IMG/VR virus record: IMGVR_UViG_3300010313_000004
Span: 1 to 34,627 of that record
Length of the DNA: 34,627 nucleotides
DNA from: a virus
Direction: 5' to 3' (one strand)
Shown: positions 198-18,547 of the stretch, piece by piece
How the letters are laid out: each line of letters starts with the position of its first letter
Numbering within the stretch: the first letter of the stretch is position 1
Translations under genes and position numbers: made by a program
The notes under the pieces: generated by a model
Told to the model about the DNA's origin: nothing
The model's input: only the letters and a program-made list of their open reading frames with translations
Database searches by the model: none

Positions 198-1181
198 CTA
201 ACCAGACTTTTTCGGCATGTTCGGGGCCTGCGCGGTGGTCGGTTTTTTGCCGCGCAGGTAGCGCGCAGTCATCCGGCTGTCGGTGTGGCCACCAAGTTTC
301 TGAGCATCCTTGCCTTCGCTGTCCGCGTCTGTCAGCGACTTGGCACGCAGGTCGTGGATGCGAACGTCTGCAATCCCTGCCGCGTCCCTGGCCTTGGCGA
401 AGGCATCTTTAACTGTGGCGTATGATACCGGCTTGCCTCCCCCTCGCGTGCAGAACAACGTCAAACCGCGCACTTTTCTTGGTAAGGCCTTGGCCCGATC
501 GATGACGCCCTGAATGTCATCGGTCATGGTCACGATCAGCTTTGCCCCTGTCTTCTGTTGGCGAAACTCGATGCCGGCCGGGCTTATATCGGCCAGGCGT
601 ATCGCCAGCACGTCACCAATGCGCTGCCCGGTCAGGTAGCACATTTCAAAAATCACCCGCATGTATTCGCTGCAATGGGTCATGAGCGCCTGAAACTCTT
701 GGTCGGTGATGTAGCGGTCCCGCTTGCTTTCTTCGTGGCGCCTGATGCCTGTGCAGGGGTTGCTGTCGACAAGCTGCCACTCCAGTGCGTAGCTGAAGAC
801 CACCCGCAGGAAGGAGAGCACCCGATTGGCCCAGTTGGGCGTGCTGGCCAAGTCCATTTTCACGGCAGCGACGTGCTTTGGCAGAACCTCGTCCGGCTCA
901 AACTCGGCAAAGATATCGCTGAGCCGATCAGCCGCGGCGGTGTATTGCTCGATCGTATTGCCGGCCAGCTTCTTGACCTTGATGTGGTGAGCGAGAGCCT
1001 TTTCGATCAGCGCCGGCATTCCGCCCACTTTTGCGCTTGCCGTCTTCTTGGCATAGGCGAGCAGGGCCGCCTGGTAATCAGAGTCGAGCCGCTCCCACTT
1101 GCCTTTGCGTACCAGGTAGTAAGCGCCGTGCTTCTGGTACATGCATGCCGGCAGGTGCCGATCCTTCTTGCGTGGGCGCAT
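198..1181 (-). CDS. int: Phage tyrosine recombinase (site-specific integrase)
   Basis: Integrase for prophage insertion and excision by site-specific recombination. The 327-aa protein has an N-terminal arm-binding region (about 1-60), a core-binding SAM-like domain (about 55-145) and a catalytic domain (about 155-310). The full catalytic set is visible: R187 in TGQRIGD, K210 in QQKTG, H276 and R279 in HDLRA, H299 in GGHTD and the nucleophile Y308 in ARYLRG. It is the outermost phage gene, next to mutS, as expected for an integrase beside its attachment site. An excisionase-like gene ends 10 bp upstream. The ATG at 1181 has a good ribosome-binding site (GGGAAAGAG). Confidence 0.95.
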   Translation of the reverse strand: MRPRKKDRHLPACMYQKHGAYYLVRKGKWERLDSDYQAALLAYAKKTASAKVGGMPALIEKALAHHIKVKKLAGNTIEQYTAAADRLSDIFAEFEPDEVLPKHVAAVKMDLASTPNWANRVLSFLRVVFSYALEWQLVDSNPCTGIRRHEESKRDRYITDQEFQALMTHCSEYMRVIFEMCYLTGQRIGDVLAIRLADISPAGIEFRQQKTGAKLIVTMTDDIQGVIDRAKALPRKVRGLTLFCTRGGGKPVSYATVKDAFAKARDAAGIADVRIHDLRAKSLTDADSEGKDAQKLGGHTDSRMTARYLRGKKPTTAQAPNMPKKSG

Positions 1182-1981: not shown

Positions 1982-2821
1982 TTAGCGCGGCTGGGCGTAG
2001 CCGCCGCTTAGACCGAGGGCCTGGTGGTTGCTGTAGATCTCGGCGCGCCGGGCATCGAGGACGGTGAAGCTGCGGTTGGCTTCCACCAGTTGCTCCCACA
2101 GGGAGTCGAGCACGGGCGACTTGAGCACAAGCCCGGCGGCGGCCAGGCTGTTGCATTCCTTGGTCATGGTGTGCACGCGGGCCATGAGCAGGTAGAGGTG
2201 ATGCGCCTCATGCGGGCTTAGGGCCAACCCCGGTTTGGATTGCTCGGCCTGGAGCAGTTCACCTTCCAGCGGCAGCCGGGCGACCAGGCTGATGGCGTCG
2301 GTGAATTGCGCGGGCTCAATGGCCTTGTAGGTGCGCCCGAATTTGCTCTTGAGGGCCGACCAGCAGGTGATGGCTGCCTTGGCGCGTTTGCTCTCGGGTA
2401 GGGCCTCAACTCGCGCCTTGACCAGGGCCTTGATGCTGGCTTGCTGGTCGGCGGTGAGGCCGTTGGGCAGGGCTTTGGTCGTGCGGCGCGATGCTGGTGC
2501 TGGTGCATCGGCCTCGCCCTCCAGCACGTCGAGAACCCAGCGGCGGAATTCCTTGGCGACCTTGGTGCGGGCGAACATGGCCAGCAGGTGAGCACCGCGC
2601 AGGGAGAAAATGCGGATTTCGCGCTGCTGACCCTTCAACGTCAATTTGACGGTGCAGGTCATTGCAGCGCTGAACTCATCAGCGTTGCGCTCGAATATCT
2701 TGTTGATGGCGTCCTCTCTGGAGTAGCCAAGCGCTGCGCCAATCTGGCGAGCCTGTATCCAGGGCTGGCCATTGCGATCAACGATGTCGAACTGGGTGGT
2801 GTGAAAGGCGAGACTGTTCAT
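1982..2821 (-). CDS. BRO-N family phage antirepressor-like protein
   Basis: A 279-aa protein. Residues about 5-105 read as the BRO-N/P22-AR N-terminal DNA-binding domain: FDIVDRNGQPWIQARQIGAAL, GYSREDAINKIF and the conserved end SLRGAHLLAMFARTKVAKEFRRWVLD. A low-complexity linker follows (residues 112-125), then a helical C-terminal half (about 125-279) that is probably for oligomerisation or partner binding. Such proteins counter or modulate phage repressors. The ATG at 2821 has GGAG 7 nt upstream; an upstream in-frame start at 2968 adds 49 residues without family similarity and was rejected. It is the second antirepressor-type gene in this phage. Confidence 0.82.
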   Translation of the reverse strand: MNSLAFHTTQFDIVDRNGQPWIQARQIGAALGYSREDAINKIFERNADEFSAAMTCTVKLTLKGQQREIRIFSLRGAHLLAMFARTKVAKEFRRWVLDVLEGEADAPAPASRRTTKALPNGLTADQQASIKALVKARVEALPESKRAKAAITCWSALKSKFGRTYKAIEPAQFTDAISLVARLPLEGELLQAEQSKPGLALSPHEAHHLYLLMARVHTMTKECNSLAAAGLVLKSPVLDSLWEQLVEANRSFTVLDARRAEIYSNHQALGLSGGYAQPR

Positions 2822-2966
2822 TGTGGTGCTCCATTCTGGGGTTGGAGTTCGCCACCACTGCGACCAAACAGAAAGGTGACGAGCTGTACGCAGGTTGGTC
2901 GACCGGGGAATGGAGACCCGGCAGGGCCGAAGCCCTCCCACGCACAGCCCGCCATAACGCGAGCAC

Positions 2967-2985
2967 AAAAAAACCGCTTACGCGG
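2967..2985 (-). terminator. Weak candidate leftward terminator
   Basis: On the minus strand CCGC-GTAA-GCGG is followed by seven T residues. The stem is only 4 bp. It could end leftward transcripts entering the 2822-3164 intergenic space from the DGR side. No other gene is seen in that 343-bp space. Confidence 0.35.
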
Positions 2986-3164
2986 CGCTGTGCGCCATTC
3001 ATATCCGGGCGACCAAACCCAGGCCGCTGATTTGGCAGCGACAAGAGAAGGCTAAACCCGGAGGCGCAATGCGTCAACGGTACAGTGTGGTTGTGCCGTG
3101 GTAGGTGGCCTGGCCTGGAGAGAGGGTCTAGGCTTGCATGACCGCATAAAACAAGGAGGTCTAC

Positions 3165-3842: not shown

Positions 3843-4052
3843 TCACGGCAGTCTCTCCCACACTTCGCTGTTGTCCAAGTGCTGGCGCTGGACGTAGGTG
3901 CAGCGGCCGTCCAGGCCCTGCAGTTCACAGGTGCCGCCGGCCTCCAGGTTGAGCACATAGCGCTTGCCGGTTGGCTTGTGGTGGTAGCGCGGGCGCTGGC
4001 GGCACTGTTGTTCGATGCGGCGTTGGGTGGCGCTGGTTTCGAGTCCGTTCAC
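3843..4052 (-). CDS. Hypothetical small basic protein, last gene of the DGR operon
   Basis: A 69-aa protein rich in Arg and Gln with two Cys (GGTCELQGLDGRCTYV). It starts with GTG at 4052 in a GTGA overlap with the stop of the cupin-like gene, so translation is coupled. No domain is recognised. The C-terminal 30 residues look like a small beta-hairpin unit. It closes the leftward gene series that begins with the DGR targets. Confidence 0.55.
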   Translation of the reverse strand: MNGLETSATQRRIEQQCRQRPRYHHKPTGKRYVLNLEAGGTCELQGLDGRCTYVQRQHLDNSEVWERLP

Positions 4053-4555
4053 GGCTGGTACTCCTGGTGAGGGATGACGTGGCCGCTGGGCTGCTTGAAG
4101 CCCCAGCCCTGGCGCTGGCCCCAGGTGGCGAACAGGGTCCAGGCGCCGGCGGGTGATACCTTGGCGATGCGGTGGAATTCACCACGGCCCATGGCGGCCG
4201 TGTGGCCGGCGAGGCGCAGGGCGCTGCCGGTGCGTTCGCGCTTCTCCAGGTAGCCGCCGCGCAGCACGAAGGTGCGGAAGGGCCAGGGGTGGTCGTGCAT
4301 GTCGCGCCCTACGTCCTCGGCCACGATGTGGTGCAGGCGGATCTGCAGCGGGCCGAGCCTGAGCAGCCAGTAGCGCCGCATGTACCAGCGGTCACCCTCC
4401 AGCAGCACCGTCTCCGGCGAAAGGCGGACGATCTCGCGGCCGCCGATGATGGCCAGGTGGTCATAGGGTGTGCGCATGGCGCGGCTGATGATCCGGTCGG
4501 CAATAGCTGGCCGAGCCAGCTGCTTCGCAATGAAGCGCCAGATGGGGCTGAGCAT
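4049..4555 (-). CDS. Cupin-fold-like protein with HDHPWPF motif
   Basis: A 168-aa protein with the pattern LHHIVAEDVGRDMHDHPWPF-x-FVLRGGYLE followed later by GEFHRIAKVSP. The paired HDH and downstream FHR residues match the two metal-binding cupin motifs found in a phage-encoded cysteine-dioxygenase-like cupin family. An N-terminal helix (about 1-30) precedes the barrel. A metal-dependent enzymatic or sugar-binding role is possible; no substrate can be assigned. The ATG at 4555 has AGGAG upstream. It follows the RT gene and a tiny cysteine-rich ORF in a tightly packed series, so it would be co-transcribed with the DGR. Confidence 0.65.
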   Translation of the reverse strand: MLSPIWRFIAKQLARPAIADRIISRAMRTPYDHLAIIGGREIVRLSPETVLLEGDRWYMRRYWLLRLGPLQIRLHHIVAEDVGRDMHDHPWPFRTFVLRGGYLEKRERTGSALRLAGHTAAMGRGEFHRIAKVSPAGAWTLFATWGQRQGWGFKQPSGHVIPHQEYQP

Positions 4556-4561
4556 GGCGGG

Positions 4562-4648
4562 TTACTCCTGGGGGATGGGTTTGCAGCGCAGGCACAGGCA
4601 CTCGGCAGCCGGCTTGCGGGTGGTTCGGCAGTAGGTTGTACGGATCAT
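4562..4648 (-). CDS. 28-aa cysteine-rich micro-ORF downstream of the RT
   Basis: A tiny ORF encoding MIRTTYCRTTRKPAAECLCL followed by RCKPIPQE. It contains four Cys (7, 17, 19, 22). The ATG overlaps the RT stop in an ATGA junction, and GAGGGAG lies 6 nt upstream, so initiation is well supported. The cysteines could bind zinc. Its role is unknown; it may be only a coupling peptide between RT and the cupin-like gene. Confidence 0.5.
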   Translation of the reverse strand: MIRTTYCRTTRKPAAECLCLRCKPIPQE

Positions 4649-5811
4649 TGCTCCCTCTTCGGATATGTCTTGGTCAGCGCGCCATTCACTCCGTGGCCGC
4701 GCTTGAGGATTAGGCGCGCCAGGGCGGCGCGGTCTTTCTGGCTGTGGCTGGCCTGGCTGAGCAGGCCGAAGTAGCTATTGGCGGTTTCGCGCAGCTCTTC
4801 TGCTGGTGCTGCAGCGGTGCGCTTGATGGCCTGGGCCACCGAGCGTTTGCGGGTGGTGCGCCGCCAGGGCTTGATGACGTGGCCAACGAAGTCCACGCCT
4901 CTATCAACTGGCTGCAGGATGGTTTTGCTCGGGTTGAGGCGAGCACCCAGCGATGGCAGAAACGCCTCTATCTCGGCCCGCCAGGCGTTGAGCTGTTGCG
5001 GTGACTCATGCAGCAGCACGAAGTCATCGACATAGCGAACGTAGTGCTTGCAGCGCAGCCGGTGCTTTACGAATTGATCGAGTGCATCCAGGTAAACGTT
5101 GGCGAAGAACTGCGACGACAGGTTGCCGATCGGCAAACCCAGCTGGGCAGGCTGCGCGGTCAGGCGCTTGTGCTGCGGCACTCGGTTGAACAGGTGGTTG
5201 GGGCTGTGCACCTGGTAGTCGGCGCGCGGGTCGTGCATCAGGATCTGTTCGGCCAGATCCAGCCACCAGGGTTCGGTGATGCGCTTGGCCAGCTGCTGGC
5301 GCAGCACCTGTTTGTCGATGGCGACGAAGAAGTTGGCCAAGTCGCACTTGAGATAATGCACCGGCCTTGCCCAGTTCTGGCTGATGCTGCGGATCTTCGA
5401 TTCCAAGCGCTCGGCGGCGTACAAAGTGCCGCGCCCGGGTATGCAGGCGCAACTGTCCGCTATGAAGCTGGCGTAGAAGCGCGGTGCCACATGGTTGTAC
5501 AGCAGGTGGTGGACGATGCGGTCGCGGAAGGCAGCCGCCCATACCTCCCTGGCCTTGGGCCGGGTAACCACAAAGCAGATAGAGCGGCCTGGCCGGTAGG
5601 TGCCGGCAGTCAGGTCGCCGTGTAGCTGGGTGAGGTTCCGCTCTAGGTCTGCCTCAAATGCCAGCGCGCTGGCGCTGTTGCGCTTGGAGCGCCGGCAGTC
5701 GTAGTAGGCCTGGACCAGATCGCGGAACGGGTAGGGTGCAACAGCCGAATCTGCGGACGGGACGGACGAGGAGCTCGTTGTTCTTGTCGTTGTTGTTCTG
5801 ATTGCCATCAT
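4645..5811 (-). CDS. Diversity-generating retroelement reverse transcriptase
   Basis: This RT copies the TR RNA into adenine-mutagenised cDNA that replaces the VRs of the target genes. The 388-aa protein shows the RT motifs in order: KAREVWAAAFRDRIVHHLL (about 86-104), motif A KCDLANFF with D157, the DGR-specific LPIGNLSSQ at 226-234 (other RTs have QGxxxSP), and the catalytic YVDD at 260-263. A C-terminal thumb follows (FVGHVIKPWRRTTRKRS). The only in-frame ATGs before the conserved YPFRDLVQ block are at 5811 and 5808, both inside the TR. The N-terminus TTTTRTTSSSS is therefore TR sequence read in another frame. No good ribosome-binding site precedes it. The stop overlaps the next ATG. Confidence 0.95.
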   Translation of the reverse strand: MMAIRTTTTRTTSSSSVPSADSAVAPYPFRDLVQAYYDCRRSKRNSASALAFEADLERNLTQLHGDLTAGTYRPGRSICFVVTRPKAREVWAAAFRDRIVHHLLYNHVAPRFYASFIADSCACIPGRGTLYAAERLESKIRSISQNWARPVHYLKCDLANFFVAIDKQVLRQQLAKRITEPWWLDLAEQILMHDPRADYQVHSPNHLFNRVPQHKRLTAQPAQLGLPIGNLSSQFFANVYLDALDQFVKHRLRCKHYVRYVDDFVLLHESPQQLNAWRAEIEAFLPSLGARLNPSKTILQPVDRGVDFVGHVIKPWRRTTRKRSVAQAIKRTAAAPAEELRETANSYFGLLSQASHSQKDRAALARLILKRGHGVNGALTKTYPKREQ

Positions 5812-5851
5812 CGAAGTTCATGTTGAATGCGTTGTTGGCGGAGCGCTGCGA
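5751..5851 (-). repeat. DGR template repeat (TR)
   Basis: A 101-bp sequence that aligns without gaps to VR1 and VR2. Read on the minus strand it is rich in AAC codons (31 adenines by hand count). All differences from the VRs lie at TR adenines: 12 for VR1 and 17 for VR2. The last 26 nt, from GAGCTCCTCGTCC to CCGCAG, are identical in TR and both VRs and should contain the cDNA priming/homing-initiation segment. The TR overlaps the first 61 nt of the RT gene in a different frame. The 171 bp between it and avd (5852-6022) hold no convincing gene and probably form the 5' part of the DGR RNA. Confidence 0.95.
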
Positions 5852-6022
5852 CCTGTCGTGCTATCTACGTCGCCGGGCCGAAGGCAAAGCCGATCAGCCC
5901 GGAAACTGCGCGAGACCTACGCGGACGCTTTAGACCGGCGGTATCTCGGATGCGCATGGCGGTGGCCTGTTGGCCAGCGGCACGACCAGATTCAAATCGC
6001 ACAGACCTGATCGCCTTGACGG

Positions 6023-6379
6023 TCAGGTAGCGGGCGCGGTTGCGGTGTAGCGTTTCCAGGCGTTGGCCTGTTTGCCGATGGAGGCGGTCAACTCAATGGC
6101 AGCCGCATGCTGCGGAACGCTGATAAAGCGCTTTTCCTTGAACAGTCTGAGCAGGAACTCAATCACCTGCACACGCTCAAGCAGATCCACCAGGTGGGCT
6201 GTCTTGTCCCTGGCCGCGTTGGCGCGGGCGATCAGCATCAGTACCGCGATGCATTCCCGCCTGACCTCTGCGGCAAGGCCCTGCTTCAAATCCCTCGGGA
6301 TGTTGCGGGTGATATCCGTCGAGAAGCTGAGCAGATCAAAGGCCACTTTGTAGATGCTCAAGTCCGTATGCATGGCCAT
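6023..6379 (-). CDS. avd: Avd-like DGR accessory variability protein
   Basis: A 118-aa, almost wholly helical basic protein of the four-helix-bundle (S23-like) type that partners DGR RTs: MHTDLSIYKVAFDLLSFSTD, then RNIPRDLKQGLAAEVRREC, then helices with NAARDKTAHLVDLLERVQV and KRFISVPQHAAAIELTASIG. In known DGRs Avd forms a pentameric barrel that binds RT and the TR RNA and is needed for mutagenic retrohoming. The length matches Bordetella phage Avd (about 128 aa). It lies between the VR1 gene and the TR, the usual place. The ATG at 6379 has AGGAGG at 5 nt. Confidence 0.87.
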   Translation of the reverse strand: MAMHTDLSIYKVAFDLLSFSTDITRNIPRDLKQGLAAEVRRECIAVLMLIARANAARDKTAHLVDLLERVQVIEFLLRLFKEKRFISVPQHAAAIELTASIGKQANAWKRYTATAPAT

Positions 6380-6397
6380 GCCGGCCTCCTAAAAGCG

Positions 6398-6415
6398 CCG
6401 GCCGCAAGCGGCCGG
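6398..6415. promoter_or_regulatory. Hairpin/cruciform downstream of VR1
   Basis: A perfect inverted repeat, CCGGCCGC-AA-GCGGCCGG, exactly 30 nt beyond the 3' end of VR1 and after the stop codon of the VR1 gene. In Bordetella phage BPP-1 a GC-rich hairpin downstream of the VR acts in target recognition. The same element occurs at the same distance after VR2 (7102-7117) and is absent after the TR. It may also slow transcription before avd. Confidence 0.75.
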
Positions 6416-6429
6416 AATGAATGATCGAA

Positions 6430-7044
6430 TTACTGAATGAGCTCGCTGCGGACGGGACGGACGAGGAGCTCGTTGTACTTGCCGTTGCTGTCCTGAGTGC
6501 CATCATCGAAGTACAAGAAGAATGCGCCGTAGGCGGAGCGCTGCGAGCTGCTCCAGTACCAGCGCGGCTGGAAGGCCTCAGGCCCGCCTTGCTGGAATGC
6601 CTGCAGGGTGGTCTGTGCCGGCGACTCTTTGCTGTACAGGGTGCCCACAGGCATGCTGTTGGGGTTGTCACCGTCACGGTTCCAGCAGTAGTTCTGCTCG
6701 GTGGTCGGTTTGAAGTGGCGGTACTGCAGCTCCTGCACGTCGCGGGCGGGGATCGCCCAGTCAGTGAAGCCGCCGATATCCAGGGCCAGCACCTGCTTGG
6801 CCAGTTCGCTGCCGGCGTCGGCCATGGCCTCAGTGTTGGCGCGGCTGTCGGTGAAGCTGTCCGCGCCATCGATCTTGACGCCATACTCGCCCCATTCGCC
6901 CTCAAGCTCATGTTCACGCCCAGCGGTGATGATCATGTAGCGCTGGCCATCTTGCTGGTAGAAGCCAGTGACGAAGCCACCACCGTAGGCAGTGCCGATC
7001 TCTGGCAGGGTTACCGCAGGGGCCTGCTGTTGTGCTGTTTGCAT
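6430..7044 (-). CDS. DGR target protein 1 (variable C-type-lectin-like/DUF1566-type domain)
   Basis: A 204-aa protein whose C-terminus is diversified by the DGR. The first ~60 residues (GGGFVTGFYQQDGQRYMII) look like a small beta domain. Residues about 75-200 resemble the DUF1566/Lcl fold: FTDWAIPARDVQELQY, then RWYWSSSQRSA and the end LLVRPVR. VR1 covers residues about 167-199. Variable positions correspond to AAC codons in the TR, here Y, G, F, Y, D, S and others, arranged as alternating surface residues. The conserved WYWSSSQRSA and ELLVRPVR blocks flank the variable face. Such domains bind ligands or receptors. The ATG at 7044 follows GAGG. Where the protein is displayed is unknown; no signal peptide is visible. 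Confidence 0.9.
   Translation of the reverse strand: MQTAQQQAPAVTLPEIGTAYGGGFVTGFYQQDGQRYMIITAGREHELEGEWGEYGVKIDGADSFTDSRANTEAMADAGSELAKQVLALDIGGFTDWAIPARDVQELQYRHFKPTTEQNYCWNRDGDNPNSMPVGTLYSKESPAQTTLQAFQQGGPEAFQPRWYWSSSQRSAYGAFFLYFDDGTQDSNGKYNELLVRPVRSELIQ
6446..6546 (-). repeat. DGR variable repeat 1 (VR1)
   Basis: 101 bp, ungapped against the TR. The 12 substitutions all occur at TR adenines (A to T, G or C), for example AAC to TAC, GGC, TTC, GAC and AGC. Non-adenine positions are unchanged. It codes for the C-terminal variable face of the 6430-7044 protein and ends 16 nt before the stop of that gene. Confidence 0.95.
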
Positions 7045-7070
7045 GGGTGCATCCTCTTTTTGAAGGCAAC

Positions 7071-7090
7071 AAAAAAGGCGCTGCTGCGCC
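7071..7090 (-). terminator. Leftward terminator between the two DGR target genes
   Basis: On the minus strand GGCGC-AGCA-GCGCC is followed by six T residues, after the VR2 gene and before the VR1 gene. It should reduce read-through from target gene 2 into target gene 1 and the RT operon, setting unequal expression. Confidence 0.7.
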
Positions 7091-7101
7091 CCGAGTTATT
7101 G

Positions 7102-7117
7102 CTGGCCTGGCGGCCAG
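7102..7117. promoter_or_regulatory. Hairpin/cruciform downstream of VR2
   Basis: A perfect inverted repeat, CTGGCC-TGGC-GGCCAG, exactly 30 nt beyond the end of VR2. The stem differs in sequence from the VR1 hairpin, but position and the intervening 30 nt (20 of 30 identical by hand alignment) are conserved. This fits a target-recognition structure rather than chance. Confidence 0.72.
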
Positions 7118-7134
7118 AATGAATTAGCGAATAA

Positions 7135-7749
7135 TCAAATGAATGCTCTGCGGACGGGACGGACGAGGAGCTCGAGGCCCTTGGCGTCGCTGTCCTGACC
7201 GCCATCACCGAAGACCATGAAGAATGCGCTGTAGGCGGAGCGCTGCGAGCTCGACCAGTACCAGCGATCCTTGGTGAAAATGCCCGGCACGTTCAGCCAG
7301 CCGTGGTACAGCTCAGCTGCAGCAGGCAGGAAGAAGTCGTTGTGGCCATCGGCGCTGTGCTTCGCTGCTGCCTCGGCCGCAGGGTGGCCGCGCTCAGCCA
7401 GCAGTGCCTTGGTATTGGCCAGGCCGTCACGCTTGCAGGTGGCTGCTGACTCTTTCTCGTAGCCGCCCCAGGCGCACTTGTCTGCATCGTGCTTTGCCCA
7501 AATCAGGTAATGGGCCGGCACGTCTCCATAAGCAGCCACCAGGCCGCCGTTGATACCGCCTTGCTCTGGCCAGTAAACGCCCACAGCGGGGATGGCTTGG
7601 GTGTTCAGCTGCGGTGCTGGTGCTGCTGCCTGCTGGGCAATACCAACCTGGGCCAGTGCCGCCGCCACAAAGGTGGTGGCCACAACATGGGCCGGCACCT
7701 GCACTTTGATGCCTTCGGGGGTGGTGATTTTGATCATGTCGCGACTCAT
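7135..7749 (-). CDS. DGR target protein 2 (variable C-type-lectin-like/DUF1566-type domain)
   Basis: A 204-aa second target of the same DGR. The N-terminus (MIKITTPEGIKVQVPAHVV, then a hydrophobic Ala-rich stretch to about residue 45) is unrelated to that of target 1. From about residue 60 it reads as a DUF1566/Lcl-like domain: AIPAVGVYWPEQGGINGG, LIWAKHDADKCAWGG, FFLPAAAELYHGW, and the shared WYWSSSQRSA and ELLVRPVR. VR2 covers residues about 168-200. Its variable residues differ from VR1 at most positions. The ATG at 7749 follows GAGG. The hydrophobic N-terminal stretch could be a membrane or multimer-packing segment; no clear cleavage site is seen. Confidence 0.88.
   Translation of the reverse strand: MSRDMIKITTPEGIKVQVPAHVVATTFVAAALAQVGIAQQAAAPAPQLNTQAIPAVGVYWPEQGGINGGLVAAYGDVPAHYLIWAKHDADKCAWGGYEKESAATCKRDGLANTKALLAERGHPAAEAAAKHSADGHNDFFLPAAAELYHGWLNVPGIFTKDRWYWSSSQRSAYSAFFMVFGDGGQDSDAKGLELLVRPVRRAFI
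7148..7248 (-). repeat. DGR variable repeat 2 (VR2)
   Basis: 101 bp, ungapped against the TR. All 17 substitutions lie at TR adenines, including double changes such as AAC to TTC, GTC, GGC and CTC and AAT to GGT. It has diverged from the TR more than VR1 has. It ends 13 nt before the stop of the 7135-7749 gene. Confidence 0.95.
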
Positions 7750-7851
7750 AGGAAGTCCTCGCCAGTGGCGTGAAGTGTTGTTGTGGGGTAGGGTTCCGCC
7801 GCCACTCTCCCGCCCGAGCGTCAGGCAGGGAGTGGGCGGGTGGGGTGGCGA

Positions 7852-8043
7852 TCAGGCGATAAATGCTTTCGCCGCCAGCGCATTTACCCGTCCGCGCCAT
7901 TCATCAAGCGAAGCCTGGGTTAGCTGCTGGCAGGGCTTGTGGCATTCCGGCTGGAGCGGGCAGGCATTGCAGCTGCTGCGGGACTTGAAGTTGTAGTGCT
8001 GCTCGCAGATGGCTTTGGCCTCGGGGCTGAGTTCGGCACTCAT
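7852..8043 (-). CDS. Small cysteine-rich (zinc-binding) phage protein
   Basis: A 63-aa protein with five Cys in the centre and one near the N-terminus (CEQHYNF, CNACPLQPECHKPC). The closely spaced cysteines suggest a metal site. The C-terminal helix SLDEWRGRVNALAAKAF is amphipathic. Similar short proteins occur in Pseudomonas prophage early regions, but no function is known to me. Its ATG overlaps the stop of the preceding (frameshifted) gene in an ATGA junction. Confidence 0.65.
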   Translation of the reverse strand: MSAELSPEAKAICEQHYNFKSRSSCNACPLQPECHKPCQQLTQASLDEWRGRVNALAAKAFIA

Positions 8044-8407
8044 GCTGCTCGCGCTCCATAGTCCGCCCAGCCAATCTTCGGCGCCTTGGTCTTCTTGTTG
8101 ATCAGCGGCTTACCTGATGCATCCTTGAGCACGCTCTTGAATCGAATATGCAGATCCCGGCAGTCGCCCGCCTTTCGCTGCAGTTCGATCCACTGCTCGG
8201 CGTACTGGGGGCGTCAAACATGCCTGACAACTGCTTAACCTTTTTGCCAGCCATCACCCTGTCGGCGCGCTTCTCGCATTCCGCCGCCCACTCGGACGCG
8301 GTTAGCTGGATGATGGCCCCATTGTGCGCCTTGGTTGTCGGGGTGTTCTTTTGCGCATCTTTCAGGGCCACTGCGCGGGTCATACCAAACACTGCGAATG
8401 TGCTCAT
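8040..8407 (-). pseudogene. Conserved phage early gene interrupted by a single-base frameshift
   Basis: The first 67 codons from ATG 8407 read MSTFAVFGMTRAVALKDAQK and on to KVKQLSGMFDAP. At the run of five G (8207-8211; five C on the coding strand) the frame breaks: the zero frame continues with atypical composition to a stop at 8102. The -1 frame continues naturally as QYAEQWIELQRKAGDCRDLH and RFKSVLKDASGKPL, ending at 8040 in an ATGA overlap with the next gene. The joined product would be about 122 aa. One missing base in a homopolymer (mutation or sequencing error) or a -1 frameshift explains this. The function is unknown. GGAG precedes the ATG. Confidence 0.72.
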
Positions 8408-8411
8408 GGCT

Positions 8412-8720
8412 TCACTCCAGTAGATCAAGCGCCTGCTTGATAAGGTCGGTGATGGTTTCGGCGTCTTCTTCGTCCTCAACTGCCCGCCAAAGCAGCTTGC
8501 AGGCCTCGCTAACATTGGAATCGAGGGTGTCTTTCTCGCCCTCGATATCCGATAGCTGCTGCTCAAGCCGTTCGATTTCTTCGCGCAGCTCAGCCCGCTC
8601 CGCTCCGGGATCAAGGCTGCTTTCGGCTATCCGCCGCGATAGTTCTGCTGCTGCCTCGGGCTCCAGGGCGGCGTAGTGCAGCAGCTCGTCATCCTTCAAT
8701 GCACCTGCAGGGATGCTCAT
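8412..8720 (-). CDS. Acidic coiled-coil protein
   Basis: A 102-aa acidic protein. Residues about 40-75 (GAERAELREEIERLEQQLSD and on) form a clear heptad coiled coil. The remainder is helical with a conserved-looking N-terminus (IPAGALKDDELLHYAALEPEAA). It starts 4 nt after a GGAG-like context and stops 4 nt before the next ATG, so it belongs to the leftward early operon. No function is recognised; it may be a dimeric regulator or structural adaptor. Confidence 0.65.
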   Translation of the reverse strand: MSIPAGALKDDELLHYAALEPEAAAELSRRIAESSLDPGAERAELREEIERLEQQLSDIEGEKDTLDSNVSEACKLLWRAVEDEEDAETITDLIKQALDLLE

Positions 8721-8816
8721 CGATTTTCTCCAGGCAATAGCAGCCCGCTGCGCTGCTGGCGCTGGGCTTGATTTGGTTCGGAAAAGTTTTGCCGGAAACG
8801 GGTAATGATTTTCCGG

Positions 8817-9035
8817 CTACGGGGCGGTGATGCGGATGCTGCGGCTGATGCCTGGGGTGCGGGCAATCTTGCCGTTGCGCAGCAAGGTGAGTAGGCGCCC
8901 CTGGACTGCGTTTTCGTTGATCTTGAACCTGGCAGCAAGCTCTGCGACTGATGGCGAGTAGCCGTTTTCTGCTATGAAGTCGCGGATTGCGGCGAGGGTT
9001 TCTGCTTGCTTGTTGTGGCTTGGGCTTGGGTTCAT
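8817..9035 (-). CDS. LexA-type winged-helix DNA-binding protein
   Basis: A 72-aa protein that reads as a stand-alone LexA N-terminal DNA-binding domain: QAETLAAIRDFIAENGYSPS (helix 1 and turn), VAELAARFKINENAVQGRL (recognition helix), then LRNGKIARTPGISRSIRI (wing). The LexA autoprotease half is absent. It could occupy operator sites as a small regulator. The start at ATG 9035 is preceded by AAAGGA; a longer reading from 9080 lacks a ribosome-binding site. It is encoded on the PL transcript. Confidence 0.78.
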   Translation of the reverse strand: MNPSPSHNKQAETLAAIRDFIAENGYSPSVAELAARFKINENAVQGRLLTLLRNGKIARTPGISRSIRITAP

Positions 9036-10952: not shown

Positions 10953-11324
10953 TTACCCCGCCAGCTCCTGCTCCCCGCGCCGGTTGATGCGCATCTGGGC
11001 GATGCGCGGGGCGCTTGGTGGGCGGCGGATGGATTGGTGCTGGTGCAGGGCCATGCTGTTGAGCAGCATGATCACGGCCAGCGGGGCGACGATGCCGCGC
11101 TTGATGGCCTCCAGGCAGAGGCCGCGCACGGTGCGCTGCATGCCGAGCTTGAAGCGTGCCGCCTCCAGGCGCTGGCTTACGGCCTTGGGGCTTACGCCCA
11201 TAACCCGCGCGATTTCTTTACAGGTCATATCGGCGCAGGCGTAGATCAGGGCCTCCAGCTGGCGCGGGGCCAGGCCGGCGTTGAGCTTGCCGCGCCAGCC
11301 GGCGGCTTCGATTGTGTCTTGCAT
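10953..11324 (-). CDS. LuxR/sigma-4-like helix-turn-helix protein, first gene of the PL transcript
   Basis: A 123-aa protein. Residues about 17-62 match the LuxR-type HTH pattern: LAPRQLEALIYACADMTCKE, IARVMGVSPKAVSQRLEAAR, then FKLGM. A hydrophobic stretch (IVAPLAVIMLLNSMAL, about 86-101) follows and may be buried or membrane-associated. The C-terminal tail is basic. CAGGAGG precedes the ATG at 11324. As the promoter-proximal leftward gene it stands where lambda has N, but no arginine-rich boxB-binding motif is seen; a regulatory role is inferred. Confidence 0.68.
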   Translation of the reverse strand: MQDTIEAAGWRGKLNAGLAPRQLEALIYACADMTCKEIARVMGVSPKAVSQRLEAARFKLGMQRTVRGLCLEAIKRGIVAPLAVIMLLNSMALHQHQSIRRPPSAPRIAQMRINRRGEQELAG

Positions 11325-12893: not shown

Positions 12894-13754
12894 TTACTTG
12901 GCGATGCTCAGCCCGCGCCGCCGGCGCACGGTTGACCACCAGAACACCCAGCCGAGCATGCGGATGCGGGCGAACTCTTCGGCGGTGAGGGTTTCGTCGG
13001 GGAACTCTTCGTCGTTCTCGCTGCGGATGCGCACGCCGCCGCCGGGCAGGCGGTAGAGGTATTTGACGCGCAGCATGCCGTCCTGGTCGAAGGCGTAGAT
13101 CTCGCCATCCTCGATGTGCGTGGTGCCCCGGTCGATGCCGATGGTGGCGCCGTCCATGATCAGGCGCTCCATGCTGCGGCCCTTGATGGTGGCGCACACA
13201 GCGTTGCATTCCTGTACGCCAGACTCGCGCAGGGTGGACTTGGCAAAGCGCAGCAAGCGCCCTGGCACCTCAATAACTTCTGTCGCCCCGCCGCCTGCCG
13301 CCAATTCAACCTCCTTGTAGAGCGGTATTGCCACCTCATCATCACCTAGAGGGGTCTTGCTATCCCATGCCGCCATCGCGCCGATCAGTTCGGCGTTGGC
13401 TTCAGGTCGAATTGCGGCGCCTGAGTAGATGCCTTTGGGCTCTGCGACTGAGCTCGGGCCGTTAACGGATTTAGCCAGCGATGAGATCTCTTTAGCCAGC
13501 CTCGGGCTGAAATCCTGAATCGGCACCTGCAAATACTTTGCAAAAACTGCGGCTGCCTCAGCGTTAAGGGCATTGCGGCCGGTCAGGTAATGACTGGCGG
13601 CACTTTGAGAGCTCGCCTTTAGGCCCTCAATCGCTATCAGCTCTTGAGTTATGCCGAGCGATTTCTTTTTTGCCTTGTAGATGGCGTTCAGCGCGGCGCA
13701 CTCATGCAGCTCATCAGTGCTGAGTGGGCGCTTTTTAGGTTTCTCATTCATCAC
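12894..13754 (-). CDS. CI/LexA-type prophage repressor with S24 self-cleavage domain
   Basis: A 286-aa repressor. Residues about 20-85 form a helix-turn-helix of the CI type (LGITQELIAIEGLKASSQSA, then ASHYLTGRNALNAEAAAVFA). Residues about 145-270 form the S24 peptidase domain: probable cleavage in ELAAGGG at about A153-G154, nucleophile S194 in KGRSME, and general base K231 in MLRVKYL. It should therefore self-cleave with RecA after DNA damage and induce the prophage. It is transcribed away from cro, with three operators between them. The ATG at 13754 or 13751 follows AGGTG closely. The 333-aa gene continues the operon. Confidence 0.93.
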   Translation of the reverse strand: MMNEKPKKRPLSTDELHECAALNAIYKAKKKSLGITQELIAIEGLKASSQSAASHYLTGRNALNAEAAAVFAKYLQVPIQDFSPRLAKEISSLAKSVNGPSSVAEPKGIYSGAAIRPEANAELIGAMAAWDSKTPLGDDEVAIPLYKEVELAAGGGATEVIEVPGRLLRFAKSTLRESGVQECNAVCATIKGRSMERLIMDGATIGIDRGTTHIEDGEIYAFDQDGMLRVKYLYRLPGGGVRIRSENDEEFPDETLTAEEFARIRMLGWVFWWSTVRRRRGLSIAK

Positions 13755-13762
13755 CTGAGCTT

Positions 13763-13777
13763 ATGACCTTAGGTAAT
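13763..13777 (+). promoter_or_regulatory. Repressor operator OR3 (candidate)
   Basis: ATGACC-TTA-GGTAAT, nearest to the repressor start. Its centre lies 23 bp from OR2. By analogy it should control repressor autoregulation. Confidence 0.7.
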
Positions 13778-13785
13778 AGCAATCT

Positions 13786-13800
13786 AAGACCGCTGGTCTT
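13786..13800 (+). promoter_or_regulatory. Repressor operator OR2 (candidate)
   Basis: AAGACC-GCT-GGTCTT, a perfect 6-3-6 palindrome. It overlaps the first bases of the PR -35. Confidence 0.78.
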
Positions 13801-13826
13801 GCTTAAAACAAGACCGCGAGTAATAC
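13799..13826 (+). promoter_or_regulatory. Rightward early promoter PR
   Basis: TTGCTT (13799-13804), 16 nt, TAATAC (13821-13826). The predicted start near 13833 gives a ~23-nt leader to the cro-like gene. Operators overlap both promoter hexamers. Confidence 0.75.
13810..13824 (+). promoter_or_regulatory. Repressor operator OR1 (candidate)
   Basis: AAGACC-GCG-AGTAAT, overlapping the PR -10 and centred 24 bp from OR2. The three operators are regularly spaced by about two helical turns, as in lambda OR. Confidence 0.7.
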
Positions 13827-13855
13827 TTGCGCGGACAAAGAACTTGGAGCGACCC

Positions 13856-14056
13856 ATGAAGCGCACCCCTCTAGACATATTCGTAAGTGAGCGCACTCAA
13901 GAAGAGTGCGCTGTATTGCTCGGCTGCACCCAGGGCGCCATCAGCAAAGCTCTGCGAGTTGGCCGTGCCGTGCTGGTCACAGAGCACGATGACGGCACTT
14001 TTTCGGCTGAGGAACTACGGCCTTTCCCGTCACGGCAGCAAAACACGGCCGCCTGA
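13856..14056 (+). CDS. Cro-like small DNA-binding protein
   Basis: A 66-aa protein with a Cro/YdaS-type helix-turn-helix: RTQEECAVLLGCTQGAISKA, where TQGAISKA is the recognition helix, followed by LRVGRAVLVTEHDDGTFSAE as a beta-hairpin. It is the first gene rightward from PR and divergent from the repressor, so it should act as Cro, competing for the shared operators. The ATG at 13856 follows TTGGAGCG. An in-frame start at 13763 lies within the operator region and was rejected. Confidence 0.87.
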   Translation: MKRTPLDIFVSERTQEECAVLLGCTQGAISKALRVGRAVLVTEHDDGTFSAEELRPFPSRQQNTAA

Positions 14057-14651: not shown

Positions 14652-14725
14652 CGGAACCTCCTGGTTCGCTGTGTTGGGTGAGAGCTTCACAGCGTAGCAG
14701 GCGGTTCCGACCTTTTTGCAGGCAC

Positions 14726-14755
14726 AAAAAAGCCCGGGGGCAGCCGGGCTTCTTC
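14726..14755. terminator. Bidirectional terminator hairpin
   Basis: AGCCCGG-GGGCAG-CCGGGCT at 14731-14750, with A6 on the left and TTCTT on the right. It is strong leftward and weaker rightward. For rightward transcription it stands between cro and the replication genes, as lambda tR1 does, implying antitermination or partial read-through. Confidence 0.7.
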
Positions 14756-14778
14756 AACAACTATGCACGGAGTCGATT

Positions 14779-15522
14779 ATGCACGCAGACACCCACCCAG
14801 GCAACACCAGTGCCGCGCCACGTTTTCATGTTGCGCAAAACGTGGCGCGCACGATGAGCAGCCGCGAGATTGCAGAGCTGACCGGCAAGCTGCACAAGAA
14901 CGTGAAGCGCGACATTGCGGCCATGCTCAGTGACCTGAAAGCAGATGCGCTCAGTTTTGAGCGCATCTATCTGGACGGGCTCAACCGCGAGCAAACCGAG
15001 TACCTGCTGGACCGTGAGCACACCGACTGCTTGCTGACTGGTTACAGCGTGCCGATGCGCATGAAGGTGATCCGCCGCTGGCATGAGCTGGAGCAGGCCG
15101 AGGCCGCTCCGGCCATCCCTCAAACACTCCCCGAAGCCCTGCGCCTGGCGGCCGACCTGGCCGAGCAGAACAACCAGCTGCGCCTGGTGGTGACCGAGCA
15201 GGCGCCGAAGGTGGAAGCCCTGGCGCGCATTGCCGATGCCCGCGGCTCGATGTGCCTGACCGATGCTGCCAAGCACCTGGGTGTGCAGCGCTGCAAGTTG
15301 ATCGATTGGATGAAGGCGAACCGCTGGATCTACCGGCGGGAGGGCTGTGCGCGCTGGCTGGCGTATCAGCCGCGCATGGCGTCCGGCTGGCTGGAGCACA
15401 AGGTGACGGTGCTGGGCCTGGATGATGAGGGTGACCAGCGCCTGGCCAGCCAGGTGCGTATTACCCCGAAGGGGCTGGCGGTGCTGGCGCAGAAGATGGG
15501 GGGGCACAGCAATGGCCGGTGA
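14779..15522 (+). CDS. Rha/KilA-C (ANT) phage antirepressor-type regulator
   Basis: A 247-aa protein. Residues about 25-105 match the Rha N-terminal domain: TMSSREIAELTGKLHKNVKR, then DIAAMLSDL and ending SVPMRMKVIRRWHELE. A coiled segment follows (about 110-150). Residues about 150-240 match the KilA-C/ANT domain: KVEALARIADARGSMCLTDA, then AKHLGVQRCKLIDWMKANRW and VRITPKGLAVLAQKM. Proteins of this class act in phage lytic/lysogenic decisions. The ATG at 14779 has GGAG at 6 nt; in-frame codons from 14716 run through the terminator and were rejected. It overlaps the next gene by 11 bp. Confidence 0.88.
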   Translation: MHADTHPGNTSAAPRFHVAQNVARTMSSREIAELTGKLHKNVKRDIAAMLSDLKADALSFERIYLDGLNREQTEYLLDREHTDCLLTGYSVPMRMKVIRRWHELEQAEAAPAIPQTLPEALRLAADLAEQNNQLRLVVTEQAPKVEALARIADARGSMCLTDAAKHLGVQRCKLIDWMKANRWIYRREGCARWLAYQPRMASGWLEHKVTVLGLDDEGDQRLASQVRITPKGLAVLAQKMGGHSNGR

Positions 15523-17290: not shown

Positions 17291-17513
17291 GGCAATCACC
17301 TGGAAGCCGAAGATCGACCGGGACGGCAAAGAGATCCCTGGCTGCTTTATCAGCGATTCGGGCTACACCGTGGCCAGCGCCTATGTGCCTGAACCACGCT
17401 TTACGCTGACCCGCCCCGGCGGCTCGGCCCCATTCGCCTACACCGACCGCAAAGGCGACGTGAATAGGCTGGTGCGGGCCGACCTGCAGGCTGCCGGCGA
17501 GGTTAAGGCCTGA
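17283..17513 (+). CDS. Hypothetical early protein
   Basis: A 76-aa protein from a GTG start at 17283 (GGAGG 5 nt upstream), overlapping the previous gene by 8 bp. It reads as a beta-rich unit: ITWKPKIDRDGKEIPGCF, ISDSGYTVASAYVPEPRFTL, AFAYT-like strands and a C-terminal helix. It resembles small phage proteins that precede a recombinase or resolvase gene; no function is recognised. The stop TGA shares its A with the next ATG. Confidence 0.6.
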   Translation: MVEAITWKPKIDRDGKEIPGCFISDSGYTVASAYVPEPRFTLTRPGGSAPFAYTDRKGDVNRLVRADLQAAGEVKA

Positions 17514-18547
17514 TGGCGGCGAAGAAGGGCGGCATGCGCACCACGGGGGATGTGGTGGGGTGGTGGCTGGAGCGGCTTGAGGGTGACACCTCGCGCTCCA
17601 CCAAGTACCGCAAGAGCATGAGCTGCGTGATGCGCAAGCATGTGCTGCCCAGGGTTGGCAAGGTGGCCGTGCGCCGCCTGGATCGGGTGACGCTGGATGA
17701 CTTGCTGGTGTGGCCGATGCACCAGGAGCTGGCCCCGCGTACGGTGCAGAAGGCCCTGCAGGGGCTGCGCCAGGCCTTCGCCATTGCCGAGGAGCAGAAC
17801 CGGGTGGAGGTAAACCCACTGGCTGGCACCACCTTCAAGAACTTCTACAAGGGCAAGCTGCGGCCGAAGCCGGCGGCGCTGTCGCGGGTGGACCTGCCGG
17901 GCCTGGTGCGTCAGCTGGTGGACGCCTTCAATGCTGACCCGGCCCGGGGGATGCTGCCGCTGATGATGCTGGCCCATGGCACGCGCATCACTGAGACCCT
18001 GACTGCGCGCTGGTCGCATATATCCCTGGATGAGCGGGTGTGGGTGCTGCCGGAGGCCAACACCAAGAGCCGCCGCGAGCATGTGCTGCCGCTGACCGCT
18101 CAGGTGCTGGCGCTGATCCAGCGTTACCGCCAGGCCTTGCCGGATGTGCGCCTGCGCGCGCCGTGGGTGTTCCCGGTGCGGGGTGGCTCGCGGATGGCGG
18201 AAACCAGCGCCCATGAGTTGATGCGCCAGGTGAGTGGGCGGCAGTGGACCAGCCACGACCTGCGCAAGCTGATGCGCTCCAGCCTGGCGGATATCGGCAT
18301 CGATCACGGCATCGGCGAACTGCTGATCAACCACACCCTGGGCGTGGTGGCTGAAACCTACCTGACCCGCGATGCGTTGGAGCGGCGCCGGGAGGCGTTG
18401 GAGCGCTGGCATGCGCGGCTCGATGAATGCGGCTTTGCCGATGCGCACGGCTTAAAAGTGGCTGCTCCTGCAGTTCTGCAAAACAGCGAAGCGCCAGAGT
18501 CGGCGGGTGGTTGCGGCGTTTTTGGTGTTTCTACGGGGGGAGAATGA
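17513..18547 (+). CDS. Second tyrosine recombinase, in the replication/recombination module
   Basis: A 344-aa recombinase with an N-terminal core-binding domain (about 8-105) and a catalytic domain (about 120-290). All catalytic residues are present: R158 in HGTRITE, K185 in NTKSRRE, H248 and R251 in SHDLRK, H274 in LINHTLG and Y283 in ETYLTRD. A C-terminal tail of ~55 residues (from about 290) is Ala- and Glu-rich. It is distinct in sequence from the integrase at 198-1181. Similar genes occur at this place in some Pseudomonas phages. Its substrate may be a dimer-resolution or replication intermediate site; this is inference. It overlaps its neighbours at both ends. Confidence 0.88.
   Translation: MAAKKGGMRTTGDVVGWWLERLEGDTSRSTKYRKSMSCVMRKHVLPRVGKVAVRRLDRVTLDDLLVWPMHQELAPRTVQKALQGLRQAFAIAEEQNRVEVNPLAGTTFKNFYKGKLRPKPAALSRVDLPGLVRQLVDAFNADPARGMLPLMMLAHGTRITETLTARWSHISLDERVWVLPEANTKSRREHVLPLTAQVLALIQRYRQALPDVRLRAPWVFPVRGGSRMAETSAHELMRQVSGRQWTSHDLRKLMRSSLADIGIDHGIGELLINHTLGVVAETYLTRDALERRREALERWHARLDECGFADAHGLKVAAPAVLQNSEAPESAGGCGVFGVSTGGE

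Follow-up and report, generated by a model that had tools for sequence, protein, structure and literature searches.

A diversity-generating retroelement with one template and two lectin-fold targets among the leftward early genes of a lambdoid, Pseudomonas-type phage

The stretch of viral DNA analysed here, a 34.6-kb viral contig fragment from IMG/VR (record IMGVR_UViG_3300010313_000004, 34,627 nucleotides; henceforth termed the window), carries a diversity-generating retroelement (DGR) with one template repeat (TR) and two variable repeats, VR1 and VR2, located in separate target genes. On the minus strand, the parts follow one another in the order target 2, target 1, avd, TR and reverse transcriptase (RT) (Table 1). 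The open reading frames (ORFs) given by an original prediction made from the sequence, together with the RT motifs YVDD and LPIGNLSSQ, were all correct. Its description of the element as complete also holds; RT, Avd, the TR, two VRs and two targets are recovered by Pfam and PHROGs matches and by alignment of the repeats. The closest solved structure to the RT is 8ub7, entitled 'Reverse transcriptase' (E 4e-38), and a phmmer search of Avd against the Protein Data Bank (PDB) returned no match.

Table 1. Features of the DGR cassette and their supporting evidence (aa, amino acids; AF2, AlphaFold2; pLDDT, model confidence score).
Feature	Position	Strand	Evidence or remark
Target gene 2 (P0004-type), 204 aa, with an Lcl_C / C-type-lectin domain after an N-terminal beta-hairpin and helix	7135..7749	(-)	phrog_4245; AF2 pLDDT 82
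VR2	7148..7248	(-)	17/17 mismatches with the TR on its adenines
GC-rich inverted repeat CTGGCC-GCCA-GGCCAG	7101..7117	(-)	~30 nt downstream of VR2
Terminator-like hairpin	7092-7075	(-)	beyond VR2 inverted repeat
Target gene 1 (P0003-type), 204 aa, single Lcl_C / C-type-lectin domain	6430..7044	(-)	phrog_4245; Lcl_C-like; AF2 pLDDT 76.8
VR1	6446..6546	(-)	12/12 mismatches with the TR on its adenines
GC-rich inverted repeat CCGGCCGC-TT-GCGGCCGG	6398..6415	(-)	~30 nt downstream of VR1
avd, encoding the 118-aa accessory protein	6023..6379	(-)	PF22296 bAvd 54.8 bits (cut-off 40); phrog_3206 'Avd protein of DGR'
RT-15 RNA (RF03018), structured leader	5849..6039	(-)	186 bits, E 9e-46, gathering cut-off 82, model 1-192 (full length)
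TR, 31 adenines in 101 bp	5751..5851	(-)	ungapped alignment + blind scan
DGR reverse transcriptase, 388 aa	4645..5811	(-)	PF00078; phrog_1423 E 2e-118

We compared the three repeats, 101 bp each, by ungapped alignment on the minus strand. Every difference between the TR and either VR lies at a TR adenine, reproducing the counts that the original prediction had obtained by hand. The changes comprise six A>T, five A>G and one A>C in VR1, and ten A>G, five A>T and two A>C in VR2; under random placement of mismatches, the probability that all would fall on adenines is ~7e-7 and ~2e-9, respectively (arithmetic from the counts). Similarity between the TR and the VRs drops abruptly beyond the edges of the 101-bp core, and a blind, adenine-tolerant scan of the locus found these two VRs and no other, one at the 3' end of each target gene. 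The cassette is a DGR by the way its VRs depart from the TR, at adenines alone, and the proposed arrangement of one TR with two diversified targets is borne out.

Comparison with relatives speaks to activity. Among 87 RT-bearing loci (the window, viral contigs and annotated phages), 81 have exactly two VRs and 3 have three, with 2283 of 2314 TR/VR mismatches at TR adenines. Genome contigs, mostly from Pseudomonas and betaproteobacteria and with RT identities down to 56%, place 1788 of 1813 mismatches at TR adenines; their untruncated loci include 57 with two VRs and 5 with three. At TR-adenine positions of 75 alignable loci, mean entropy is 0.22 bit in the TR but 1.38 in VR1 and 1.36 in VR2, whereas non-adenine positions show 0.20-0.22 bit in TR, VR1 and VR2 alike. 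The strongest evidence of activity that sequence comparison offers comes from pairs of near-identical loci. L054 and L055 have no backbone differences in 2589 bp, yet their VR1 copies differ at 14 adenine and no non-adenine positions, and their VR2 copies at 17 adenine positions and 1 other. Two prophages of one isolate (L017 and L019, 99.7% identical) have 8 differences in 2582 bp, with 19 adenine-site changes in VR1, 13 in VR2 and none elsewhere in either VR. These pairs show, as far as aligned loci can, that VR1 and VR2 have been rewritten independently between otherwise identical members of the clade while the TR adenines stayed fixed. Independent rewriting of both VRs had been claimed in the original prediction, which also proposed comparing VRs in related prophages; that comparison finds variation at adenine positions and favours activity, and the label "active-looking" is upheld by the near-identical pairs and the entropy contrast among relatives. 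Paralogs with a repeat created by assembly, and with no retroelement function, might in principle mimic such a locus, and the source record, being a viral contig fragment, offers no reads for checking. More than 130 loci share the architecture, however, many from isolate genomes, and TR adenines account for 99% of their differences; this refutes the explanation and leaves chance or artefact a negligible probability.

The repeats of relatives show several further variations. An extra target-like gene further upstream contains a third VR in some loci (L002:105, L047:2655, L058:2375, L059:2508 and L143:973). For the Burkholderia phage Magia (L087), in which one potential DGR target is annotated, our scan returned two VRs, and neither departs from the TR anywhere but at its adenines. 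Some TRs are missing adenines (L003:5961-6061, L015/L016, L053, L038 and L007), and each lost adenine is replaced by the base found in one of the element's own VRs; L003 has lost 12, and the losses cluster at the 3' end in L015, L053 and L038. The pattern suggests occasional back-copying of mutated sequence into the template, with assembly error possible in the metagenome contigs.

The sole in-frame RT start codons (ATGATG) are positions 41-46 of the TR, inside the codons for a conserved DDG motif of the targets, and the RT ORF has no other in-frame ATG, GTG or TTG. The ATG lies within the TR in nearly all relatives, and just past it in the Pseudomonas aeruginosa phages phPA-G and Haboob. Overlap of the TR with the RT ORF is already described, as 'group 3', in a 2012 survey (PMC3521204). 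Directly 5' of the TR, the RT-15 RNA overlaps the end of avd and terminates at TR nucleotide 3, a placement that is unchanged in nine relatives with RT identities down to 56%. An alignment of 18 RT-15 sequences has 47 predicted pairs, 29 of them with compensatory changes. Rfam catalogues RT-15 as a small RNA gene; a role as leader of the DGR template is read here from the positions, and we found no paper in the literature searched that states that RT-15 is the 5' leader of a DGR template. In the DGR of phage BPP-1, the structured spacer lies 3' of the TR, between the TR and the RT gene brt (PMC12875486). The window DGR has its structured RNA 5' of the TR instead and, with the start codon inside the TR, no BPP-1-type spacer between TR and RT start. 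An RNA element hidden in the 5' coding region of the RT was considered as a substitute for that spacer and is not supported, codon variation there being not clearly suppressed, which is a weak test. Since there is neither a TR-RT spacer nor a clear RNA constraint in the RT 5' coding region, the RNA scaffold is probably the 5' leader. A scan of 4000-9000 for sigma-70-like promoters gave none and was uninformative.

Inverted repeats follow both VRs. Downstream of VR1, 80 of 85 loci have a stem of at least 6, in most cases near +30, and with paired changes; stems of similar kind follow the TR in only 16 of 85 loci, and further away. After VR2, a strict test was positive in only 41 of 87 loci, and terminators could supply part of that signal. 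An inverted repeat is required for efficient homing in BPP-1, and phage hairpins lie 4-34 bp from the VR (PMC3240598); by analogy, the hairpin downstream of each VR may be a homing element. Extrapolating from work on BPP-1, an RNA would extend from the end of avd through the RT-15 leader and the TR into the RT message, and an RT-Avd complex would bind this RNA and copy it with errors opposite adenines. The resulting cDNA would replace the matching 3'-end segment of either target, perhaps aided by the downstream hairpin.

Both target proteins are predicted to contain a C-type-lectin fold with the VR at its C-terminus. The AF2 model of target 1 matches the C-terminal domain of Legionella Lcl (8q4e) with Z 11.8 and many C-type lectins with Z 5-7. 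The top match of the target 2 model is also 8q4e (Z 9.5, 108 residues, root-mean-square deviation 3.4); a Foldseek search of this model against the PDB at E <= 0.001 gave no relative, and Lcl_C was recognized only on a second look. The Pfam Lcl_C profile (PF07603) scores 31.8 and 23.3 bits, under its gathering cut-off of 34.9. On their models, both targets are Lcl_C-like, with a clear fold match and without formal membership of PF07603. The Legionella domain, itself assigned to PF07603, has the same fold but is an adhesin domain that is not part of a DGR. No signal peptide is evident at the N-terminus of target 2, by eye or in the model, which predicts a beta-hairpin and helix instead.

The two targets represent distinct classes that are maintained together. 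With target class assigned by BLAST of the VR-free portions of the genes, one target-1-type and one target-2-type gene were present in 114 of 116 two-VR loci (RT identity at least 70%), a count that overstates independent retentions, the loci not being independent lineages. Gene order in these heterotypic loci is as in the window in 79 and reversed in 35. Because the pair is retained although recombination between paralogs could easily remove one copy, its conservation suggests that both target classes are needed by the phage.

Target homologues also occur in phages with no detected DGR RT. The temperate phages D3 (orf68), PMG1, U7, U9, FBPa19 and FBPa42 carry them in their early regions; the lytic carriers are nine jumbo phages of Wroclawvirus (L090 and L095-L102: PA5oct, Ettore, Cassandra, 30-3, 30-2, Paride, Callisto, MIJ3 and Deifobo), the PA5oct copy lying inside the terminal repeat. 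None of these temperate or jumbo carriers is among the six Pseudomonas phage records with a related RT. The VRs of RT-less phages match the phPA-G/Haboob TR, with 15 adenine-site and only 2 other differences in PA5oct. Jumbo-phage VRs fall into four groups, with 9-21 adenine-site differences between groups; within groups, TR-adenine sites differ at 0-1 positions versus 11-22 in the 370 bp upstream, and the distance to the nearest TR includes 2-14 non-adenine differences. We therefore rejected ongoing diversification of the RT-less jumbo phages in trans: TR-adenine sites hardly differ within groups, and capture in the past, with the genes frozen since, fits better. The simplest reading of these sequences is that RT-less phages repeatedly captured already diversified genes, which then froze, and such phages would constitute a natural control indicating that adenine-site change needs the RT. 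Two VR-bearing targets with no adjacent RT or Avd are kept in Medea1 (L088), Aurca01 (L089), U7 (L105) and U9 (L093). That Medea1 and Aurca01 have both targets without RT or Avd raises the alternative that the DGR of the window phage is likewise a fossil, decayed and no longer active. Against this, all of its ORFs and motifs are intact, and both its VRs have zero non-adenine mismatches versus the 2-14 of frozen jumbo VRs; we consider decay very unlikely.

The genomic position of the cassette bears on what the targets do. A cI-type S24 repressor (12894-13754, minus strand) and Cro (13763-14056, plus strand) mark a lambdoid immunity region. Rightward of it lie a replication initiator, a P-like loader, and terminase, portal, head and tape measure/tail genes, with packaging and tail genes detected at 20.5-34.5 kb on the strand opposite to the DGR. 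On its left side are an integrase (198-1181), the DGR, and an anti-repressor gene accompanied by C4 and isrK RNAs. This layout agrees with the lambda-like, Pseudomonas-type phage named in the original prediction and, by gene location, the DGR is in the leftward (PL-like) early operon between cI and the integrase. Annotated relatives have comparable neighbours: the ERF/exonuclease/SSB side in Cruim01 and Medea1 (no RT), CI and a methyltransferase in Haboob, XerC in LPPA56, and RecT and an integrase in Magia.

This location matters for a role in tropism by analogy to BPP-1, in which both targets would be virion receptor-binding proteins diversified for tropism switching. C-type-lectin (Lcl_C) domains of Legionella Lcl and of BPP-1 Mtd bind surface ligands, which counts in favour of such a role, as do the fold matches of the target models to Lcl_C and C-type lectins. 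Viral DGR targets of clades 1, 4 and 6 are, moreover, mostly tail proteins (Roux 2021, PMC8144416). Yet the targets of the window phage, judged by gene location, are not in the tail module as a BPP-1-type tropism protein is. In the window and in annotated relatives they stand among early leftward recombination, immunity and integration genes, and D3, PMG1 and the FBPa phages likewise retain the target gene among early genes, while PA5oct has it in its terminal repeat. With the cassette in a leftward early operon, the analogy is not supported, and we regard tropism switching as unlikely. We lean instead towards diversification of a factor that serves the infected or lysogenic cell and is no part of the virion, its two classes paired and possibly forming a heteromer; surface binding, superinfection exclusion and intracellular binding of variable host proteins are possible roles. 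The early-operon site, the lack of an evident signal peptide with a predicted beta-hairpin and helix at the target-2 N-terminus, the conserved heterotypic pair, and retention of the target gene in RT-less temperate and lytic phages all favour this role, whereas orphan targets often stand alone, as a single class, so that pairing is not strictly needed everywhere.

Taken as a whole, the data make it highly probable that the window belongs to a lambdoid, Pseudomonas-type phage whose leftward, PL-like early operon houses a complete and recently active DGR. Several points weigh against parts of this explanation. A virion role keeps some probability, because genes for small virion proteins may lie away from the tail module, and the absence of signal peptides from the targets was judged by eye and model alone. 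No near-identical-backbone sibling of the window phage was found, the closest RT being 94% identical, so its own recent activity is judged from that of the clade. Pairs with identical backbones and identical VRs also exist (L015/L016, L037/L083 and others, several perhaps representing one phage sampled twice), and diversification is therefore not constant. As to the products, it seems reasonably likely that they are one of each paralogous C-type-lectin class, kept together since both are needed, and that their role is that of binding proteins expressed early, not of receptor-binding proteins on the tail. A more specific proposal, which we advance only tentatively, is that the DGR clade evolved to diversify them jointly, as an obligate complementary pair of early, non-virion lectin-fold binders, possibly a heteromer with two variable faces, from a template that doubles as the RT start region and is organised by the structured RNA on its 5' side; RT-less phages, lytic jumbo phages included, would acquire and fix its products.

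Among other genes of the window, C4 antisense and isrK RNAs at 2872-3042 (minus strand) lie beside the anti-repressor at 1982-2968 in an immI-like module. There are two tyrosine-integrase-like ORFs (198-1181, minus strand, and 17513-18547, plus strand) and two unlike anti-repressor-type genes (1982-2968, minus strand, and 14716-15522, plus strand). The leftward operon also encodes a small protein with a sigma-70 region 4-like helix-turn-helix (10953-11324, minus strand).

The window DGR belongs to a known kind and is ordinary within it: published work already covers DGRs with several targets, DUF1566 targets, Pseudomonas hosts and overlap of the TR with the RT. In two surveys, multi-VR DGRs make up about one seventh of the 2012 DiGReF set, including two VRs in Pseudomonas fluorescens WH6 (PMC3521204), and 271 of 948 DGRs in 2019, with Pseudomonas among the commonest genera (PMC6642488). 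The "two-ligand diversification system" of the original prediction is a fair description of the mechanism, but the novelty it implied does not hold, multi-VR DGRs having been catalogued in 2012. As in WH6 and other multi-VR DGRs (PMC3521204) and in DUF1566 two-target DGRs (PMC6642488), one TR here is matched by two VRs in separate paralogous targets, and the WH6 element likely belongs to the same clade. The portions of the surveys consulted here cover TR/RT overlap, DUF1566-annotated target pairs and Pseudomonas hosts, and do not describe the fixed target-class pairing, the early-operon phage site, RT-less carriers or the RT-15 leader. Other phage DGRs, too, have one TR feeding two different C-type-lectin targets; in the present clade, both targets are Lcl_C-type with C-terminal VRs, and the carriers are Pseudomonas and betaproteobacterial phages. 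With the BPP-1 DGR (mtd-avd-TR-brt), the window DGR shares a homologous RT (33% identity to brt), an Avd-like protein, the target-avd-TR-RT order, adenine mutagenesis and, less consistently for VR2 across relatives, an inverted repeat downstream of the VR. BPP-1 differs in having a single, tail-protein target, whereas the window DGR has two that are non-tail by location.

What is noteworthy is the clade: its two lectin-fold targets are early, apparently not tail proteins, and conserved as a pair, a structured leader precedes the template, and other phages hold copies that look frozen. Its template arrangement calls for RNA signals unlike those in BPP-1. The clade also supplies natural controls, namely loci that share an identical backbone but not their VRs, and relatives without RT whose VRs look frozen. 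Programmed protein diversity in phages comes, as far as is known, mainly from DGRs, and the best-understood of these alters a tail protein. A large clade of proteobacterial phages in which a fixed pair of early proteins is rewritten instead would point to targeted hypermutation having a second use, such as acting on variable molecules of the host or of rival phages in or on the cell.

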